DNA of 23,320 nucleotides from a virus. The notes under the pieces were generated by a model. That model searched no databases. It was not told the DNA's origin and saw only the letters and a list, made by a program, of their open reading frames with translations. The first letter of the stretch is position 1. Each line of letters opens with the position of its first letter. Positions 1,606-22,993 of the stretch are shown here, piece by piece. The stretch is taken from IMG/VR virus record IMGVR_UViG_3300031551_000007, positions 1-23,320 of that record, one strand, 5' to 3'. The translations under genes and the position numbers were made by a program.

Positions 1606-1628
1606 AAAAAGCGGCTTGAAAGCCGCTT
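1605..1628 (-). terminator. Intrinsic terminator before the major tail protein gene
   Basis: Arms AAGCGGCTT (1609-1617) and AAGCCGCTT (1620-1628) are perfect 9-bp complements around a 2-nt centre. On the minus strand the hairpin is followed by a T run (1610-1605). It would end or reduce transcripts coming from the tail-completion gene, leaving major tail protein expression to readthrough or another start. Confidence 0.75.
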
Positions 1629-4267: not shown

Positions 4268-4648
4268 CTAGGCGGTGTAGGTCATTACATCGCTGATAAC
4301 TAACCGTCCATCGGGCATGACTAACACTAGATAAGCCTGCTTCGTGGTTACGATGGTAATAGTTACGTCGATGACTCCATCAGACTCGCTAACCAGCCAG
4401 CCCGCTATGTCTGCCAGGGTTTCAACAAATAGTCCATTTGTTTTGATAACGAAATCAGACGTATCTGTACCATCAGCGCAAATTTCCGCACCGGCCGCGT
4501 CTTTCGCCAGATAGGCGAATACTGCCCGACTCTCGTTTAGGGCATTACCCGCACCATCCACAAGTTGGATACTTACATCAGGTGTTTCAGTAGTGCCGTC
4601 CGTCACAGTCATTTCTGCATCGACAGGGTCAAATGCTAATTTCCCCAT
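4268..4648 (-). CDS. Putative capsid decoration protein, beta-rich
   Basis: A 126-aa protein starting MGKLAFDPVDAEMTVTDGTT. It has an Ig-like alternation of strands: VSIQLVDGAGNALNESRAVF, then AYLAKDAAGAEI, TNGLFVETLADIAGWLVSES, then DVTITIVTTKQAYLVLVMPD. Proteins of this layout are often found directly after the major capsid gene and include decoration or capsid-associated Ig-like proteins; the call is from composition and position, not a recognised signature. GGAGG lies nine bases before the ATG. The gene follows the capsid gene after a strong hairpin without T run. Alternative: a structural cement or tail-associated Ig-like protein. Confidence 0.55.
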   Translation of the reverse strand: MGKLAFDPVDAEMTVTDGTTETPDVSIQLVDGAGNALNESRAVFAYLAKDAAGAEICADGTDTSDFVIKTNGLFVETLADIAGWLVSESDGVIDVTITIVTTKQAYLVLVMPDGRLVISDVMTYTA

Positions 4649-6956: not shown

Positions 6957-6990
6957 GGTGATTTCAAGTAATATATTAAAAACAATATAC

Positions 6991-7029
6991 TGCTGGTATA
7001 TACTTCTGGTATATACTTCTGGTATATAC
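6991..7029. repeat. Three 13-bp tandem repeats with GTATATAC palindromes
   Basis: Plus strand units are TGCTGGTATATAC, TTCTGGTATATAC and TTCTGGTATATAC, at 6991, 7004 and 7017, each holding the 8-bp palindrome GTATATAC. They lie in the gap between the metallopeptidase and prohead protease genes, upstream of a terminator. They could be an operator or binding array; nothing shows which protein would bind. Confidence 0.7.
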
Positions 7030-9738: not shown

Positions 9739-11064
9739 CTATGCTACCTGAAAGGGTTTCTCAGGCGGGATGCCATCCTCACTCTCGACAGCATAGCGCA
9801 GGGCATCCATACCATGGTCATTTTCCTTTATCGGCTGCTCCTTTAGAGGTCTTCCGTCTTTACCTTCAGGCCAGATGTAAGTGGGAAATTCCTCCTCAGT
9901 GCAGGTAGGCTTGCCACTTTGCTTTAAACTCGGGTCCGTCTCCACCAGGGCACCCCGGAGGAGGAATAGCCTCGGCTTCCCATCTCCTGCCTTCCGGAGC
10001 CGGGCCTGGACATCCTGTATCCCAGTTGAGACAGCCTTAATCGCCGGCACCGTGGGGATACCCCGCCGCTCTAAGGTCGCCCGGTCTTCCGCGTCATGAT
10101 CGCAGATGGTGGTTTCTATGGTTTCTCCTTCAGAAAGTCGCAGGATATCCACGGCGTGGTCCTCAACAAGCCGCTTGGTCCTGTATATTTCCCGGTAGCG
10201 ATACATCCGGCCGTCGTTATCAATTGCCCACCACTGGCAGACAAGCGGATTGGTAAAGCCGAAATCGATTACCCTTATCCGCCTCCAGGATTTGGGAATT
10301 TCTCTAGGTTCTATCAAGTGCAGAGCCGGGTCATATTCTTCGTAAACGACTCCCTCCGCCTGCACCCATTGCCCCTCTCGGAGTCGCTTCGCCACGAGTC
10401 CTGTAAGGGAGTCCAGGGCATCTAGGTATTCCTTCGGATTGTGGGGGTTATCCTGGGCCCCGCTGTAATACACCTTAGCCTCGCCGCCTATAATCAAGCG
10501 GCGGTTTATCCAATGGATGGGAGCGTCAGGGTTAGTAGTGAGAAGTACCTGGCACCAAGGAGCTGCCGTACCCCTCATCCTGGCCCGGACCTCATTGAAA
10601 TCGTCCTCGGTGAATTTGTTGGCCTCTTCCATCCAGACGAAATCTACTTTACCACCCTGGCCAATAGACCTGATCTGCTCCCGCTGCTCCTCATCCTTCA
10701 TGCCACCGTAAGCCAGGATGGAACTGTTAGCATACTCAAAACGATGGAAGCTCGGGTAATGCCTCACTTGAGGATCCGTCCCGATTATTGACCGGGCCAT
10801 AAATAGCACCGTGGAATTGGTCATGCTCTCCCGGGTTTTTCGGAGCATGAGAGCCATGGCATTGGGGTACTTTTTGCAGAAGGCATTTATCTTCTCTGCT
10901 GCTACTTGGGATTTACCCCCGCCAGCGCTCCCGGTCAGCAATAACACCGGGGAAGTATCTCTCCAGGGGCCTATCTGCCAGGGTAAAGGCTCAAAGGGGA
11001 GTATCGGTTTAACCTTTTGCCTCTGTCCCTTTATTATCCTTATCCCAGTCATCAGGGCTGACAT
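9739..11064 (-). CDS. terL: Terminase large subunit
   Basis: A 441-aa DNA-packaging motor protein. ATPase part: Walker A GSAGGGKS (45-52), Walker B VDFVWMEEA (140-148), coupling motif TTNPD (176-180). Nuclease part: D267 in RVIDFGFTNP, D322/D324 in CDHDAEDR, and D416/D420 in NDHGMDALRYAV, the RNase H-like metal site. It cuts concatemeric DNA and drives it into the prohead through the portal. The ATG at 11064 follows GAAGGG and lies 56 bp inside the small terminase gene, so translation is probably coupled. ATG at 11052 is a weaker alternative start. Confidence 0.95.
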   Translation of the reverse strand: MSALMTGIRIIKGQRQKVKPILPFEPLPWQIGPWRDTSPVLLLTGSAGGGKSQVAAEKINAFCKKYPNAMALMLRKTRESMTNSTVLFMARSIIGTDPQVRHYPSFHRFEYANSSILAYGGMKDEEQREQIRSIGQGGKVDFVWMEEANKFTEDDFNEVRARMRGTAAPWCQVLLTTNPDAPIHWINRRLIIGGEAKVYYSGAQDNPHNPKEYLDALDSLTGLVAKRLREGQWVQAEGVVYEEYDPALHLIEPREIPKSWRRIRVIDFGFTNPLVCQWWAIDNDGRMYRYREIYRTKRLVEDHAVDILRLSEGETIETTICDHDAEDRATLERRGIPTVPAIKAVSTGIQDVQARLRKAGDGKPRLFLLRGALVETDPSLKQSGKPTCTEEEFPTYIWPEGKDGRPLKEQPIKENDHGMDALRYAVESEDGIPPEKPFQVA

Positions 11065-11434
11065 TGATATATCCCTTCACTTCTATCGGCTGTCCATCCT
11101 TTCCGGTGAGCTCATGCTTCTCCTTCTTGCCCCACCGGTCAGGGAATTTACGCTCAAGTATCCATGCTCTCGATTGCCAGTTATCTGTTCCGGCCTTGAT
11201 ATAAGCCACGTTGAGGATTTCGGCTTTGGCCTCCGCCCTCTTCACAGCTAGGTAGAATTCCCGGAAGATGCCGGATGATTCTCTCTCCCCACGCTTAAGC
11301 CAGTTATAACCTGTTTGGGGGGTTATCCCCACTGCCCAACATGAAGTCTCAAAGTAGTTATCGGCTGAGATATATCTGAGGATCTCTTCCTGTAGCTCTG
11401 GTGTGAGCTTCGTCGGTCGCCCTTTCTTAGCCAT
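11009..11434 (-). CDS. terS: Terminase small subunit
   Basis: A 141-aa protein with an N-terminal helix-turn-helix: GRPTKLTPELQEEILRYI, then YFETSCWAVGITPQTGYNWL and KRGERES. A helical middle (FREFYLAVKRAEAKAEILNV) and an acidic C-terminal tail follow. This arrangement is typical of phage small terminases that recognise the packaging site and form a ring. GAGG precedes the ATG by four bases. It overlaps the methyltransferase gene by 8 bp and the large terminase by 56 bp. The packaging site was not identified; in related phages it lies in or near this gene. Confidence 0.85.
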   Translation of the reverse strand: MAKKGRPTKLTPELQEEILRYISADNYFETSCWAVGITPQTGYNWLKRGERESSGIFREFYLAVKRAEAKAEILNVAYIKAGTDNWQSRAWILERKFPDRWGKKEKHELTGKDGQPIEVKGYINVSPDDWDKDNKGTEAKG

Positions 11435-12704
11435 TTATCCTCACCGCCTTGATCCCCCTAAAGTCCTCCCACCGGTCTATAATCACCTGACAATAATGAG
11501 GGTCGAGTTCCATCATGTAGCACCGGCGCCCGAGCTTCTCACAGCCGATAAGAGTCGAGCCGGAACCTCCAAAAAGGTCCATGACAATATCCCCTTCCTG
11601 GCTGCTGTTCCTGACTGCACGCTCCGCCAGGGCAGTCGGCTTTTGGGTAGGGTGGACATATTCATTGAGCGGGTCCCGGGGGATATACCAGACATCCAAG
11701 TAATCCATAAAGGTCATCCGGTCCATCCAGACGTCCCGCTCCTTGGCCACGGCCTTGTTATTTTGGTAAGGCCGCTTGCCACCCTTCCAGAAGTAGCCGC
11801 AGGGTTCATAGCATCGGTGATAAGTGCCATGAGAGAAGACTATATTTTCCTTAAGCCAGATAATGGCCGGTTGGCTGGTGTATCCGAACTTCCTGAAGGT
11901 GCTATAAATTAGGTCAGAAAACAAGCCGGCATACCAGAAGTAGACCGGCGCTTTTGCTACAGTAAAATCAAAGATATTCTGGACCACCGCGGTAAGGAAA
12001 AAGTGATAACCGCTGAGCGTCTTGTCATCACTGAAAGCTTTCATGCCACCATATTTCCCCTCACTGTAGCTGTGGCCGCCTTTGGATTTATAGTCGACAT
12101 TATAGGGCGGGTCCGTAAATACCAGGTGGGCTTTGGCCCCGGCCATCAACTTTGAAGCATCCTCGAAGGAAGTACTGTCGCCGCACATGAGCCGGTGGTT
12201 CCCGAGCTGGAAGATATCCCCCACCTTGATATCAGTGGTAGTTTCCTTCGCTGCCGCCATGGCAGCTTCGATATCAAAGGTTTCTTCCTTCAATCTCATC
12301 GCTTCGGCTTCCAGTTCTCCGATAAGATGATCCAGGTCCTGCTTTGAATAGCCGATGTCCTTTAGCATTTCAGCATCTTGCTCTTTAAGGATCTCCACCA
12401 AGCCGGCTGTATCCCATTCAGTAAGCTCCTGGAGCCGGTTATCAGCGATGGCATAAGCCTCTGCGGTAACATCATCGTCCTCCACCACAACGCACGGCAG
12501 CTCCTTAAGCCCGACAGCCTTAGCCGCCGTTAACCGCCCATGGCCGGCTTCGACGATGTAATCGCCGTTCTTCTTATTCACCACGAGGGGTGAGCGGAAA
12601 CCGAACCTCTCGATGCTCTTAATCAGCTGCTCGATATCATGCCGGCGTGGATTCCTCCCCCAGGGCTTCAAGTCTTTGACGGGAATCACTTTAATCTCTA
12701 CCAC
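11427..12704 (-). CDS. ParB-domain / DNA adenine-N6 (or cytosine-N4) methyltransferase fusion
   Basis: A 425-aa two-domain protein. Residues 1-110 are a ParB/sulfiredoxin-type nuclease-like domain (PVKDLKPWGRNPRRHDIEQL, with VEAGHGRLTAAKAVG). Residues about 160-425 are an N6_N4 methyltransferase of the beta order: motif IV TDPPYNVDY (DPPY 198-201) precedes motif I DLFGGSGSTLIG (FGGSGS 378-383), with ELDPHYCQVIIDRW after it. It would methylate phage DNA, probably protecting it from host restriction; the target is unknown. GTG start at 12704, with GAGGAG eleven bases upstream. It is the first gene after the candidate late promoter and terminator. ParB-methyltransferase fusions next to terminase are known in phages. 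Confidence 0.92.
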   Translation of the reverse strand: MVEIKVIPVKDLKPWGRNPRRHDIEQLIKSIERFGFRSPLVVNKKNGDYIVEAGHGRLTAAKAVGLKELPCVVVEDDDVTAEAYAIADNRLQELTEWDTAGLVEILKEQDAEMLKDIGYSKQDLDHLIGELEAEAMRLKEETFDIEAAMAAAKETTTDIKVGDIFQLGNHRLMCGDSTSFEDASKLMAGAKAHLVFTDPPYNVDYKSKGGHSYSEGKYGGMKAFSDDKTLSGYHFFLTAVVQNIFDFTVAKAPVYFWYAGLFSDLIYSTFRKFGYTSQPAIIWLKENIVFSHGTYHRCYEPCGYFWKGGKRPYQNNKAVAKERDVWMDRMTFMDYLDVWYIPRDPLNEYVHPTQKPTALAERAVRNSSQEGDIVMDLFGGSGSTLIGCEKLGRRCYMMELDPHYCQVIIDRWEDFRGIKAVRING

Positions 12705-12723
12705 TCTAGGTCAGCTCCTCGAA

Positions 12724-12741
12724 TATTTCTCAAAAAATAAT
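12724..12741 (-). repeat. Copy 2 of the dispersed 16-nt motif (late leader)
   Basis: The minus strand reads ATTATTTTTTGAGAAATA, 18 nt identical to plus 1588-1605; the 16-nt core TATTTTTTGAGAAATA is also at 18256-18271. It lies between the leader terminator and the ribosome site of the ParB-methyltransferase gene. Confidence 0.6.
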
Positions 12742-12750
12742 GCGGAAATG

Positions 12751-12775
12751 AAAAAGCCCTGGGAAAGCCAGGGCT
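12751..12775 (-). terminator. Leader terminator of the late operon
   Basis: AGCCCTGG (12755-12762), loop GAAAG, CCAGGGCT (12768-12775) form a perfect 8-bp stem, followed on the minus strand by TTTTT (12755-12751, including the last stem base). It sits about 25 bp after the expected start point of the promoter at 12806-12832 and before all packaging genes. Confidence 0.72.
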
Positions 12776-12805
12776 GAAAGGGAAAATCCGACTTGTGTTT
12801 CTTCC

Positions 12806-12832
12806 ATTATATCACTGATTTTGAAATGTCAA
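12806..12832 (-). promoter_or_regulatory. Candidate late promoter
   Basis: Minus strand TTGACA (12832-12827), a 15-bp spacer and TATAAT (12811-12806), both hexamers at sigma-70 consensus though the spacer is short. It lies in the non-coding gap after the sigma-like regulator gene and reads toward the ParB-methyltransferase and terminase genes. The short spacer may make it activator-dependent. Confidence 0.65.
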
Positions 12833-12852
12833 GCCCCCGCTCCAGATATAAA

Positions 12853-13296
12853 TTAGCTACGAATTCTGCGATTCCGCTTTGATTTATTTTTGCGTTTTGA
12901 TTTCCTGCCTGCGCCAAGGCGGATTCCTCCCCTCCCACCCTTGCCGCTGAGCATCCTTGCCATTTTCCTTATAGCCTGTATCTCAATAGCCTGGACCTGC
13001 CCTATATCTTTACCCAGCCAGTAAGCACAATCTTCGAGTCGCCTACCATCAATAGAGACGGCAAGTATCACGAACTTCTCCAGTGCCGACAGTTGCTGCG
13101 CCGCCTTATCGATATCAGCCTTCATGCAGATGGGCAACTCATAAGGAGCCTGAGCTCGCCCTCTCCCGATTATCCTCGGTCCCCAGTACTCGATGTAATT
13201 ACTTTCATCCTGAGGCAGCGTCCCCATCTCGAGGGCAGCATAATTCGCCAGGAGCCACCGCACTAGCCCAATTTTATAATCATCACTGCTACTCAT
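12853..13296 (-). CDS. Sigma-region-4-like late regulator candidate
   Basis: A 147-aa protein. The segment LSALEKFVILAVSIDGRRLE followed by DCAYWLGKDIGQVQAIEIQA and IRKMARML (about residues 70-117) resembles sigma-70 region 4 helix-turn-helix. The C-terminus is strongly basic (GAGRKSKRKNKSKRNRRIRS) and could bind nucleic acid. The ATG overlaps the TGA of the upstream gene (ATGA). It is the last gene before the candidate late promoter and leader terminator, the position occupied by late activators or antiterminators (ArpU/RinA-type or Q-type) in other phages. The HTH is seen by pattern; the role as late switch is inferred from place. Confidence 0.6.
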   Translation of the reverse strand: MSSSDDYKIGLVRWLLANYAALEMGTLPQDESNYIEYWGPRIIGRGRAQAPYELPICMKADIDKAAQQLSALEKFVILAVSIDGRRLEDCAYWLGKDIGQVQAIEIQAIRKMARMLSGKGGRGGIRLGAGRKSKRKNKSKRNRRIRS

Positions 13297-13986: not shown

Positions 13987-14459
13987 TATTCTCTCGCCAT
14001 CCTTAGTAATTTCCCCACTCCGTAATGGTGCTGCCCGATGCCTATAGCATCTGTTTCGTGGTCAGTGATATCTCGGGGCAGCTGGGGATATATCAAGTGA
14101 ACCGCCCCGGCCGCTATCGCTTTATCCGCTTTACCGGTGCCGGTAACACTCCGCTTCCACTCCGCTGGGCTGTAGAAAGATATCTTTAATTTACTCATCT
14201 CCGCCCACTTCTTGATGCTGGTGACCGCCACCTCCAGCGCCGGTATCCTTTTGCCATAGAACCGGATGGCACGCTCGCAAGCCACCTCGGTAAAGCCGTA
14301 CATTGTATGGAGTCTTTTCAGCTCTCCCACGATGTGCATAAAGCGGCGGTCGTAGGCTATCCCTTTGGTGCTGATGAGCCCCCATGCCGCCAGGTCCTCA
14401 TTATCGAAAAGCGCCCAGCCCAGGACAGTAGATGAAGGGTCAACCGCCAGGAATTTCAT
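13986..14459 (-). CDS. RuvC-fold Holliday junction resolvase
   Basis: A 157-aa RNase H-fold nuclease. D7 in FLAVDPSSTVLGWA, E62 in EVACERAI, and D133/D137 in ITDHETDAIGIGQHH give the acidic metal-binding set of RuvC-type enzymes. The middle, SPAEWKRSVTGTGKADKAIA, fits the RuvC SPxxVKxxxTGxGxAxK pattern. It would cut branched DNA arising in recombination by RecT or clear junctions before packaging. ATG overlaps the LuxR-like gene by ATGA, with GGAGG nine bases upstream. Confidence 0.88.
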   Translation of the reverse strand: MKFLAVDPSSTVLGWALFDNEDLAAWGLISTKGIAYDRRFMHIVGELKRLHTMYGFTEVACERAIRFYGKRIPALEVAVTSIKKWAEMSKLKISFYSPAEWKRSVTGTGKADKAIAAGAVHLIYPQLPRDITDHETDAIGIGQHHYGVGKLLRMARE

Positions 14460-14698
14460 TTATTTATTCCTCCATTCCCGAGGGGCAGTTCAAAGGGATG
14501 AATCCAGCGTTTATACACGGCAAAGGCCACCGCTTGGGTAGTGGTCTTGGCAGCCAGCTTTGTTCTTATAATACGGACATAGACATCAAGAGTAGCCACG
14601 CCGACCGCCTGCTCCTTGGCGATTGCATCATAATTGAAGCCTCTCGCCAGCCGGTCGAGGATTGTAATCTCCTGCAGGGTGAGGGGCGACGTTATCAT
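14456..14698 (-). CDS. Orphan LuxR/GerE-type helix-turn-helix protein
   Basis: An 80-aa protein that is little more than the DNA-binding domain: LTLQEITILDRLARGFNYDA, IAKEQAVGVATLDVYVRIIR, TKLAAKTTTQAVAFAVYKRW. This fits the GerE tetrahelix (T-x-x-E-x-x-I-L ... I-A-x-x-x-x-V ... T-L-x-x-Y-V-x-x-I-x-x-K-L-x-A ... A-V). There is no receiver or ligand domain, so activity must be set by its amount or by partners. GGGAG lies nine bases before the ATG. A degenerate version of the dispersed 16-nt motif (ATTATTTGAGA) lies just upstream. Probably a phage transcription regulator. Confidence 0.75.
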   Translation of the reverse strand: MITSPLTLQEITILDRLARGFNYDAIAKEQAVGVATLDVYVRIIRTKLAAKTTTQAVAFAVYKRWIHPFELPLGNGGINK

Positions 14699-16003: not shown

Positions 16004-16862
16004 TTTCTCCTTTTGATAATTCAACATAAGATTCAAACCAAGAAACTTTTACCTTGTCCCTCCATTCCTCATTGAAGGCGGGAAAGTTTGGTAAGCGGGT
16101 TGATGATTTGACCGGAGCAGCCTTTGGCTGCTGTTTCTTGGGACATGGGGATAGCTTAGGCTGCCGGCTCGGTGAATATGGTAATAAGCCCCACTTCATT
16201 TTCCTGGTTGACCAGGTTGAATCAGCTATCCCCCATCTTCTCTTGGTAAATCTTTCTCCATAATCCCCAACCTCAGCGAGGATTTGGGCGGTATTTTCAT
16301 CAAGATACTTCCTCATGGCGCCCTTGGTATAAGGGTCAGGCAGGGGAGGCACCGGGATCAGCTCTACCTTCGCCTGGTGACTTTGGTTTACTTTGGTAGC
16401 AGAAGGTGACCCTTTTTTGTTCTGCCTGCTCCTACCCCATTTACCTATCGGCAGTCCCCATCTTTTTTTGAGATATGCCCAGGTGCCGGATGGAATTCCC
16501 CACCGCTTCCTGGTGGTCAATTCCCTAAGTTTTTCAACCTCGGCTTTTATCTGTTCCTTATTCTCCTCATAATAAGCATACATGATAAGCCTGTGTTTAG
16601 GCCATTTATCTCCGCTTACATCGGGTTTCGGAGGGACCGGTAATTTCAAGAGAGTGTCTTTATCAAGGTCCTTGAATCTTAATTTTCCCGCCATAATTTC
16701 CCCCATTTCTAACGCTTTCTTCCTTCTCACCCGCCTATTTACGATTACCTCCATCGTTTCTTGTGTTTTTCTCTCCCCACATTGAATACAGACCCACCTT
16801 TCTTCTTCATCATTCCATCCCATATCGCCACCGCACTTCGGGCAGGCCCTGGAGAGAATCAT
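15978..16862 (-). CDS. Zinc-ribbon protein with duplicated RWG-motif module
   Basis: A 294-aa protein. C7, C10, C25 and C28 (ACPKCGG ... VCIQCGE) form an N-terminal zinc ribbon. Then come two similar modules, residues about 72-138 and 166-227: each begins L.PVPP.PD, has a helix (EENKEQIKAEVEKL / DENTAQILAEVGDY) and ends with a paired motif, KRWGIPSGTWAYLKKRWGLP in the first and RRWGIADSTWSTRKMKWGLL in the second. A third partial start, RLPNFPAFNEEWRDKVKVSW, closes the protein. The RWGI..(G/S)TW pattern looks like an HTH turn, so sequence-specific DNA binding is likely. I know no named family. Confidence 0.6.
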   Translation of the reverse strand: MILSRACPKCGGDMGWNDEEERWVCIQCGERKTQETMEVIVNRRVRRKKALEMGEIMAGKLRFKDLDKDTLLKLPVPPKPDVSGDKWPKHRLIMYAYYEENKEQIKAEVEKLRELTTRKRWGIPSGTWAYLKKRWGLPIGKWGRSRQNKKGSPSATKVNQSHQAKVELIPVPPLPDPYTKGAMRKYLDENTAQILAEVGDYGERFTKRRWGIADSTWSTRKMKWGLLPYSPSRQPKLSPCPKKQQPKAAPVKSSTRLPNFPAFNEEWRDKVKVSWFESYVELSKGEIGNQGIQR

Positions 16863-16884: not shown

Positions 16885-18786
16885 TTAGTCTTTATCCTGT
16901 GAGCTTCGCCGTGTCTGGCATATGCCCTTTTCGACTTTAATGACATCATCGGCTATGCAACACGGCTCCCCGGTCCCCACTCTCTCCTTTATGGCGAAGT
17001 AGCATCCTGGGCAGTTGGCATTCTGAAAGGCAGCCAGAGGATTTTTAGCTCCGGTGTAGGCTGATAACTGATCATCGCTGATATAGACGATCGGTTTTTC
17101 CTCTTCCGCTGCCGGCTCTATAATCTCCTCCTCATCCTCCAGCTCGTTATCCTCGACCTCTTCCGCCGCCGGCTCACACCGCCCGCGGCATTTCCCAGCA
17201 CTATCCAGCTGCTTGTGATAGGTATAATTGCAGCATTCCTCCCCGGTACCGATGAGATTCTCCTTGGCATGGATACAGCCCCGGCAGTTCGCTTCCTGGA
17301 AGGCGGTAACCTCGGCAATAAAGGCTTCCAGGGTACCGGTGATAATGGCCAGATCTCGCTGCTGCTCATGCTTGAGGACCACGCTATAATCATGGTAAGC
17401 GCTGGCCCGCCGGCCCCGGGTAAACTGGGCAGCGATCGTTAAATTCAGGAGCTTCTCGAGAGATTTACCATTAAGGCCGACGATTAAAGTATCTATATCC
17501 AGCCTGCCATTGTTCAATTTGGGCAGGTCTTCAAACATGAGCCCCAGGTCCTGCCGCCCGGCGGCATCCAAGGTGGGGAGGATATGCTTCGCCAGGACCA
17601 ACAAGCAGCCGCGGGGATTTTCATTTGCGTGCTGAAACGTCTGCCCGAGCTTGATAGTCAGCTCCCGGTCCTGCTCTTTTTTGAGCTTGTTCGTATCTCG
17701 AGTTTTCTTAGTCTTTTTCTTCCGATAGCAGCTGGGGTCAAGGCAGATCCGCTCTGGCTCTTCTTTGTCAGTCACCCGGTACTTGAAGAGGGCTGTCTTG
17801 GGGCATTTTTCGCATTCCTCGGGGCTGTCAATCTCATCCGGGCGGATGGTTTCCCGCTGGCTATAACTGATTTCGTCACCGGTAAGGAATTTCTCCTTGG
17901 CGCCCTGTCCCTTCAGGGCTTTTTGGGCTTCTTCAACCCAAGCTCTAACCGCGGCGGAGTTTTTCTTCTCCCAGCATTCGATATTAAGGCACCGGTCCTC
18001 TTTCTTTCTGGACTCCCAAGGCTCTGATGCTTTTATCTTAAACTCACAACCTTCGCATTCGCTGACGTCAAAAGCTGGCTTCTCCCATCTATCAGATTTC
18101 GGGTTGAGGCTTTTACTACTATTCCAGAGTTCCCTCTCCACAGAATTTGATAGCTCGGCTACCGAGAAATTTCGGCTGATACTCTGTTTCGCCAGGTCCT
18201 GCTGCAGTTTCGGCGCCTTGTTCATCCGGAGCAGCTGTCGGCCATGGGTAGGTGATATTTTTTGAGAAATAATTTCCTGCTGGATCTCCGCCGGCAGCTC
18301 CAGGAGCCGGATAGTATTGGCTATCTCGCCCTGGCTGCAGTTGTGGCACCGGGCCAGTTCCGTCTGGGATATCTTGAAGTCCTCCAGGTACCGCTTATAA
18401 AAAGTGGCCAGCTCGATGGGGTTAAGGTCTTTGCGGACTGTGTTGGCCTCCATCACCAGGTCGGCCATTTGCTGATCGCTTAGATCCCGGACCACACAAG
18501 GTATCTCGGCATATTCCTGCAGTTTGAACTCCTGGAGATTAAACAGAAAGCCAGCCCTCCGCAGCCAGCCATCCCCAATCTCATATTTGCCAGGCTCCTT
18601 GCCAGGTCGGACCACCGGCATCTGTATCAGTCCGTGCTCCTGAAAGGATAGGGCGAATTCCTTCGCCGTCTCCGGGGATACCTTTCTCCTGCTCTCCGGC
18701 TGATAGGGATTCGGGAGCAGGTCCTCCACCTTAATGAACCGGGCCACCTCCACCCCGGTCACTTTGGGCTTAGTCTTTGTTGCCAT
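16885..18786 (-). CDS. Large ParB-like protein with four cysteine clusters
   Basis: A 633-aa protein. Residues 15-125 are a ParB N-terminal domain (EDLLPNPYQPESRRKVSPET, with EIGDGWLRRAGFL) and 130-215 a ParB HTH (ISQTELARCHNCSQGEIANT then IRLLELPAE). Two C-x2-C...C-x4-C units follow (C244/247/266/271 and C325/328/348/353), like the zinc units of PRTRC-type ParB proteins. Two further Cys repeats end the protein (C501 to C537, C592 to C623), each with FQ.ANC.GC and GTGE.CC, separated by an acidic linker. No ParA gene is in the window. It may organise or segregate phage DNA or regulate transcription. AAAGGAG precedes the ATG, which overlaps the previous gene by 17 bp. Confidence 0.85.
   Translation of the reverse strand: MATKTKPKVTGVEVARFIKVEDLLPNPYQPESRRKVSPETAKEFALSFQEHGLIQMPVVRPGKEPGKYEIGDGWLRRAGFLFNLQEFKLQEYAEIPCVVRDLSDQQMADLVMEANTVRKDLNPIELATFYKRYLEDFKISQTELARCHNCSQGEIANTIRLLELPAEIQQEIISQKISPTHGRQLLRMNKAPKLQQDLAKQSISRNFSVAELSNSVERELWNSSKSLNPKSDRWEKPAFDVSECEGCEFKIKASEPWESRKKEDRCLNIECWEKKNSAAVRAWVEEAQKALKGQGAKEKFLTGDEISYSQRETIRPDEIDSPEECEKCPKTALFKYRVTDKEEPERICLDPSCYRKKKTKKTRDTNKLKKEQDRELTIKLGQTFQHANENPRGCLLVLAKHILPTLDAAGRQDLGLMFEDLPKLNNGRLDIDTLIVGLNGKSLEKLLNLTIAAQFTRGRRASAYHDYSVVLKHEQQRDLAIITGTLEAFIAEVTAFQEANCRGCIHAKENLIGTGEECCNYTYHKQLDSAGKCRGRCEPAAEEVEDNELEDEEEIIEPAAEEEKPIVYISDDQLSAYTGAKNPLAAFQNANCPGCYFAIKERVGTGEPCCIADDVIKVEKGICQTRRSSQDKD
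18256..18271. repeat. Copy 3 of the dispersed 16-nt motif, inside the ParB gene
   Basis: Plus strand TATTTTTTGAGAAATA, identical to 1590-1605 and to the minus strand of 12725-12740. It covers about codons 172-177 of the ParB-like gene, in the HTH region. Confidence 0.6.
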
Positions 18787-22795: not shown

Positions 22796-22993
22796 TCAGA
22801 TACCCCAGGGGCTCCGGATAGTTCCGCTGCCAGTCCTCTGCCTGACCAGGGAATAAAGGACCGGCTCCGGATAGTTCCGCTGCCAGTCCTCTGCCTGACC
22901 AGGGAATAAAGGACCGGCGCCGTAATGCACCTCTGCAACCTCAAAGTCCTCCAGGGCATTATCATTCGGGGCATCTGTGCGCTGAGAGCTCAT
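22796..22993 (-). CDS. Small protein with C-terminus rewritten by a 53-bp duplication
   Basis: As it stands this is 65 aa: MSSQRTDAPNDNALEDFEVA, then EVHYGAGPLFPGQAEDWQRN, then YPEPVLYSLVRQRTGSGTIR and SPWGI. The ATG overlaps the upstream TGA (ATGA). If one 53-bp unit is removed the frame continues instead as YPEPLGYLRAALKNLFGPRW then WKRLRITAN, ending at a TGA (22733-22731) just ahead of the next gene's GAGGAGG site. That arrangement fits the tight packing seen elsewhere, so the single-copy form is probably ancestral and the present product truncated or altered. Family unknown. Confidence 0.55.
   Translation of the reverse strand: MSSQRTDAPNDNALEDFEVAEVHYGAGPLFPGQAEDWQRNYPEPVLYSLVRQRTGSGTIRSPWGI
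22811..22916. repeat. 53-bp perfect tandem duplication
   Basis: Units 22811-22863 and 22864-22916 are identical, starting GCTCCGGATAGTTCCGCTGC. The unit length is not divisible by three, so copy number changes the reading frame of the gene it lies in. Confidence 0.92.

Follow-up and report, generated by a model that had tools for sequence, protein, structure and literature searches.

How does the phage represented by IMG/VR virus record IMGVR_UViG_3300031551_000007 control the transcription of its late genes? The 23,320 bases of this record, hereafter referred to as the window, agree at 99.99% over 15.3 kb with those of IMGVR_UViG_3300031554_000006, a near-identical record of 27,864 bases that adds approximately 6.4 kb to the window and runs through the tail genes. 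All genes of the window are carried by the minus strand. Genes for recombination and replication, ParB, RuvC and small proteins come first, and they are followed by the packaging, head and tail genes. The last early gene stops at position 12853 and a gap of 148 bases separates it from a late operon that encodes a ParB-methyltransferase, TerS, TerL, portal, protease and capsid proteins, an order in line with a preliminary description of this DNA. Both a predicted promoter and a predicted intrinsic terminator are located inside this gap. We tentatively favour the view that the gap is a late-operon leader acting as an antitermination switch of the Q/AlpA type, and we place this view ahead of transcriptional activation of the RinA/Ltr type. 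In addition, the leader contains a 16-bp element that probably represents a ParB-type regulatory site.

Predicted promoter and terminator of the late-operon leader

The predicted late promoter (12806-12832, minus strand) consists of TTGACA at 12832-12827, a spacer of 15 nt and TATAAT at 12811-12806, and transcription is predicted to start near 12799. The stop codon of the upstream gene, which encodes a candidate regulator, lies 20 nt before the -35 element. When spacers of 15-19 nt were considered, this was the sole site of the window with 12/12, or even at least 11/12, matches to the sigma-70-type consensus. Among 60 dinucleotide shuffles no site had 12/12 matches and the mean number of sites with at least 11/12 matches was 0.4. 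An automatic promoter scan, which covered spacers of 16-18 nt, had missed the site because its spacer is 15 nt long. The preliminary description had identified both hexamers and had taken the short spacer to fit a promoter that needs help. It did not mention the TG located one base before the -10 element (TGATATAAT), which makes this an extended -10. The consensus hexamers together with this TGn motif argue instead for a self-sufficient promoter, and they therefore favour antitermination over activation. An open reading frame of 25 codons that begins within the -10 element was dismissed, as it has no visible ribosome-binding site (RBS).

The hairpin AGCCCTGG-CTTTC-CCAGGGCT (12775-12755), followed by TTTTCATTT, starts about 25 nt past the predicted RNA start. 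It has a perfect 8-bp stem, a 5-nt loop and a T run, the stem and T run as described before, and is a predicted intrinsic terminator (12750-12775, minus strand) at which transcription would be expected to end. The leader RNA from position 12799 folds with -15.6 kcal/mol (z -2.9). Indeed, when the entire minus strand was scanned with strict terminator criteria, only two hairpins passed, against an expectation of 0.07 per strand. The other one (1609-1628, minus strand) is AAGCGGCT-TTCA-AGCCGCTT, read from 1628 to 1609 and followed by TTTTATTT. It folds with -13.7 kcal/mol and represents a second strong predicted intrinsic terminator, located between tail genes of the late operon. The window has one place where a promoter and a terminator lie within 30 nt of each other, and 30 shuffles gave none. 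No known small-RNA family of Rfam matched at the gathering threshold.

The protein encoded upstream of the leader

The last early gene (12853-13296, minus strand) encodes a small candidate regulator of 147 amino acids, composed of 58 N-terminal residues, a domain resembling region 4 of sigma-70 (residues 59-117) and a basic tail (residues 118-147). The 30 residues of this tail include 14 lysines or arginines and no aspartate or glutamate. Both the domain and the very basic tail had been noticed in the preliminary description. Profile libraries gave weak matches to sigma factors (PHROG 351, E 0.006; NF005248, E 0.03). In an AlphaFold2 (AF2) model, built from the single sequence and with a predicted local distance difference test (pLDDT) score below 60 at the N-terminus, the protein has six helices, the last four of which correspond to region 4 (pLDDT of about 60-80). 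The tightest Foldseek matches to this model were sigma region-4 domains (PDB 3hug, 1.2 Å over 54 residues). A search of 400 Chloroflexota genomes yielded weak matches in 96 of them at E≤0.1, and the top matches were mostly to region 4 of extracytoplasmic function (ECF) sigma factors, aligned with residues ~58-135 of the 147-residue protein. An hhalign comparison with these ECF sigma factors, a set picked by similarity, gave a probability of 96.5 and an E-value of 8e-10. Fold, genome search and hhalign thus confirm that residues 59-117 form a genuine sigma region 4. The possibility that the protein is itself a sigma factor was ruled out, because the 58 residues before region 4 leave no room for a region 2, and no region-2 match was found.

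We also asked whether the protein belongs to a known family of late regulators. The comparison with the ArpU, RinA and Q families that had been proposed in the preliminary description gave no match at E≤1. For the 21Q family (PF06530/PHROG 79), PF06530 matched nothing in the window, even with E-values up to 10 admitted, no Q family was among the PHROG matches of the protein at E≤1, and hhalign against a 21Q-family protein gave a probability of 0.2. The lambda Q and 82Q families had no Pfam or PHROGs match at E≤1, in agreement with the earlier statement that this regulator is not lambda Q. Likewise, none of the matches to NCBIfam, Pfam and PHROGs with E≤1 was to RinA or ArpU. The hhalign probability was 0.2 against 35 ArpU-like proteins and 0.04 against RinA, where the RinA profile was made from a single sequence and the test is a weak one. 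The early region encodes a second small helix-turn-helix (HTH) protein (14456-14698, minus strand) of the LuxR/GerE type (PF00196, 1.4e-6; PHROG sigma factor, 2.4e-5), which is another candidate regulator.

Proposed antitermination and competing explanations of the leader

The anatomy of the leader matches that of a Q-type system, in that a candidate regulator is encoded by the last early gene and is followed by a promoter, a terminator near +25 and a long late operon that runs in one direction and includes a second strong terminator. In such a system, the strong and self-sufficient promoter at 12832-12806 would initiate RNA near 12799. As long as the regulator is absent, RNA polymerase would halt at the hairpin that ends about 45-50 nt on, so that only a short RNA would be made. 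Once the last early gene (12853-13296) is expressed, the sigma-region-4-like domain of its product might contact promoter DNA, RNA polymerase or both. The modified polymerase would then be processive enough to pass the terminator at 12775 as well as the one at 1628-1609, and the packaging, head and tail genes would be expressed.

This scheme has precedents. The solved 21Q antiterminator consists of six helices, of which H3-H6 are folded like sigma region 4 and are used for DNA binding, and it binds between the -35 and -10 elements of a promoter with a downstream intrinsic terminator (PMC6606751). The present phage shares with 21Q and its PR'/tR' leader a small sigma-region-4-like protein, a strong predicted late promoter and an intrinsic terminator downstream, and the AF2 model, whose N-terminus has low confidence, likewise has six helices with region 4 formed by the last four. 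However, no sequence similarity to 21Q is detectable, no clear TGAGCA-type paired site was seen, the spacer is 15 nt long, and the phage comes from no enterobacterial group. The target of AlpA from Pseudomonas aeruginosa is a promoter with an intrinsic terminator that starts 54 nt after the RNA start, and AlpA acts as 21Q does although the sequences are unrelated; the Q families, too, lack mutual sequence similarity (PMC7969949, PMC9371919). Those who determined the AlpA structure foresaw that further antiterminators would be recognised through their fold rather than their sequence (PMC7969949, PMC9371919). AlpA and the present system have in common a promoter with an intrinsic terminator tens of nucleotides on and a small protein with an HTH fold that is unrelated to Q in sequence, but none of the searched libraries gave an AlpA match, and the binding element may differ. 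The closest terminase matches among bacterial genomes were in a Planctomycetes metagenome bin and a Chloroflexi metagenome bin. Work on Q-type antiterminators has so far dealt with enterobacterial phages and with Pseudomonas. The leader together with the region-4 protein is a compact and directly testable candidate for a system of this type.

Leaders of related phages were compared. The nearest relative by its first late gene (L085/L464; 52% identity for the ParB-methyltransferase, 51% for TerS and 46% for ParB) has a leader of 362 bases with two strong terminators, the first of which lies about 40 nt past a weaker promoter-like sequence, TTGTAA-15-GATAAT. Another relative (L463) has one terminator in the corresponding leader. 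In a third phage (L168; 64% identity for TerL), an extended -10 promoter is followed 58 nt on by a strong terminator at the early/late boundary, after a helicase-like gene. A strong terminator was found no more than 500 nt upstream of the ParB-methyltransferase gene in 7 of 40 non-redundant loci (including L097, the coordinates of which are unreliable since the gene begins at the contig end). No such terminator was located inside the ParB-methyltransferase gene itself, and shuffled sequences gave one. In kin, terminators of the leader thus recur although the gene before it varies, just as Q genes vary among lambdoid phages. A protein encoded next to a ParB-methyltransferase in locus L149 matched the tail of the 147-residue protein at its C-terminus (GGRGGxRxGAGRK), which was judged to reflect a shared basic motif and not homology.

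A general rule that late regulators with a region 4 have promoter-terminator leaders fails for an ArpU-like family, in which only 4 of 37 non-redundant loci have a downstream terminator. The intended positive control, the leader of Escherichia coli QuuD, was uninformative as its 80 loci are near-identical. One locus (L141) encodes a RinA/ArpU-like regulator (2544-2993). The next 300 bases contain a weak promoter of the extended -10 type as well as two terminators, and HNH, terS and ParB-methyltransferase genes come after them. In its family this arrangement is rare, terminators being present at 4 of the 37 non-redundant loci. In phage phi11 (L220), the RinA-controlled leader between rinA and terS contains a strong hairpin with a T run behind it, GGGTTGGCT-GATTAT-AGCCAATCC, which is located at 4455-4478 and thus about 48 nt before terS.

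Several observations weigh against antitermination. No profile links the 147-residue protein to any antiterminator (Pfam, NCBIfam, PHROGs and hhalign), and 21Q was not among the structural matches listed for its model, of which the helix count is weak evidence because of the N-terminal pLDDT below 60. Inspection by eye revealed no clear paired Q-binding site between the -35 and -10 elements, nor did the first transcribed bases include a good pause element of the -10-like kind, the best candidate being GATTTT at +12 to +17 with 3/6 matches. Homologs of the protein among viral contigs, GTDB genomes and INPHARED were limited to the 99.99%-identical record of the same virus. Conservation of this protein beside the ParB-methyltransferase was sought in the relatives and not found; L085 and L463 instead have a different small basic-tailed protein before the leader, with neither a sigma-like domain nor a known family. 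Leader terminators that recur in this way are equally expected of a plain boundary terminator, and the hairpin at 12775 could also simply serve to end the early transcript. Nor is a terminator at this boundary diagnostic, since phi11 has one between rinA and terS as well. Finally, RinA/Ltr activators, too, are small basic proteins whose genes lie immediately before the promoter they act on. Of the lambda-type late control proposed in the preliminary description, the leader anatomy and the region-4 fold have therefore stood up, whereas the specific tie to this protein is weakened by relatives that keep the terminators with another protein and by the gene position shared with RinA/Ltr.

Two other explanations must be considered here. 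The first, which we regard as rather unlikely, is that of an ordinary boundary or short-RNA gene, where the terminator would close the early transcript, the promoter would be a constitutive one and the adjacent protein would have its target elsewhere; the promoter-terminator pair would then yield an RNA of about 50 nt or a weakly attenuated late transcript. The terminator does lie 78-98 nt past the last stop codon of the early operon, which is a normal position for a terminator, no homolog links the protein to the leader, and the closest relative combines similar leader terminators with another upstream gene. However, a near-perfect promoter placed before and not after the terminator makes little sense at a simple boundary, the late operon would be attenuated twice (at 12775 and 1628), and a short-RNA gene finds no counterpart among known small-RNA families.

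About equally unlikely is an activator of the RinA/Ltr type that would bring RNA polymerase to the late promoter by binding upstream of it, with the hairpin ending the early transcript or damping leakage. Like RinA and Ltr of staphylococcal phages (PMC13123087), the protein is small and basic and is encoded at the end of the early genes, directly before the late promoter, the terminase and the structural genes. RinA itself is weakly sigma-region-4-like (PF04545, 0.004), and the phi11 leader mentioned above also has a strong hairpin-plus-T terminator. Moreover, two imperfect repeat copies lie about 18 nt apart at the 3' end of the coding sequence, where the Ltr repeats of Phi13 are located, but these can be explained by recurring KSKR codons in the protein tail. 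Targets of Ltr bear about four repeats, and the at most two found here were matched by 6% of the shuffles. Unlike RinA/Ltr systems, the present one shows no four-repeat set, its protein resembles neither RinA nor an ArpU-like family in hhalign, and the promoter already has consensus sequences at both hexamers plus TGn. We retain antitermination as the preferred reading.

A Noc-like ParB and its putative binding sites

A repeated element in the leader, which was missed in the preliminary description, suggests a second layer of control. The exact sequence TATTTTTTGAGAAATA was the sole 16-mer found three times in a repeat search (12724-12739, 1590-1605 and 18256-18271). The leader copy (12724-12739; TATTTCTCAAAAAATA, the reverse complement of TATTTTTTGAGAAATA) corresponds to about +61 to +76 and is located just before the RBS of the ParB-methyltransferase gene. 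The second copy (1590-1605) directly follows the second terminator and precedes the RBS of the gene at 1103-1573. The third (18256-18271) lies within the parB coding sequence, where coding constraint could explain it.

The parB gene (16885-18786, minus strand) encodes a protein with ParB_N and HTH_ParB domains (HTH_ParB, 1e-23) that is closest to Noc (TIGR04285 nucleoid_noc, 5.7e-39; PDB Noc 7ol9, 7e-26). Its score is below the curated cut-off for Noc and above that for ParB, and it is a candidate binder of the 16-bp sites. No ParA was seen in this 23,320-base fragment. When compared with the full 16-bp sequences of the Noc-binding site and parS, TATTTTTTGAGAAATA matched the former at 12/16 positions (2.5e-5 for shuffled letters) and the latter at 10. 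These two sites differ at bases 1 and 6 (PMC7383237). By alignment, the phage ParB has a glutamine at the position equivalent to residue 173, as in Noc, which reads A at base 1, and base 1 of the element is an A. Base 6 is a T and residue 201 a threonine, neither of them ParB- or Noc-like. Compared with the Noc system (PMC7383237), the present one is thus alike in a ParB closest to Noc, the 12/16 identity and the Q173-A1 pairing, but differs in base 6, in residues 179, 184 and 201 (T, E and T) and in the position of sites in late-operon leaders.

ParB homologs with 39-53% identity are accompanied by the palindromic variant TATTTCTTGAGAAATA in L464 (twice, at 11590 and 16396) and L463 (once, at 16824). 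A further relative with a ParB homolog, L462, carries TATTTCTCAGGAAATA or TATTTCTTGAGAAATC (at 517 and 6840), and the consensus of the element across these phages is TATTTCTYRAGAAATA. Copies inside parB are weaker evidence, as they lie in conserved codons. Taken together, the identity to the Noc site, the variants in relatives with ParB and the Noc-like residue indicate that the leader is probably also a ParB-type regulatory site. In the antitermination scheme, the Noc-like ParB might bind past the leader terminator and ahead of the first late gene, where it may hinder transcription, and also after the second terminator. If bound, ParB/Noc-like sites past both strong terminators would represent an unusual form of ParB-family regulation of phage late transcription.

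More doubtful than the alternatives discussed above is the far-reaching proposal that the 147-residue protein founds a new type of Q-like antiterminator, made up of a bare region-4 domain of the sigma type and a tail rich in arginine and lysine and standing outside Q, AlpA, RinA and Ltr, in which the leader would double as a loading site for a Noc-like ParB and the late genes would be gated twice, by read-through of terminators and by a ParB clamp after each terminator. It is very improbable that ParB is the chief controller, loading at the 16-bp sites to silence late transcription or to organise the genome with the sigma-like protein in a secondary role: two of the three exact copies do directly follow the only two strong terminators, the residue pairing at base 1 is Noc-like, base 6 is as non-canonical as residue 201, and KorB is a precedent for silencing by a ParB-family protein (PMC11790492), but conserved parB codons, within which the third copy and the corresponding sites of relatives are located, could create these copies, and one site in a relative falls within a gene.

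The late operon itself begins with a fusion of ParB_N to an N6/N4 DNA methyltransferase (11427-12704, minus strand; PF01555, 5e-30; PF02195, 3e-9; phrog_498, 9e-117), a phage type that is already known. The small (11009-11434) and large (9739-11064) terminase subunits follow on the same strand and together occupy 9739-11434. Further downstream, three tandem 13-bp units (ATATACTTCTGGT) reading TATAC..GTATA (6985-7029) are present in a gap of 218 bases that precedes the prohead protease gene, and represent a possible operator array. Near the end of the window, a 53-bp unit is present as a perfect tandem duplication (22810-22915).
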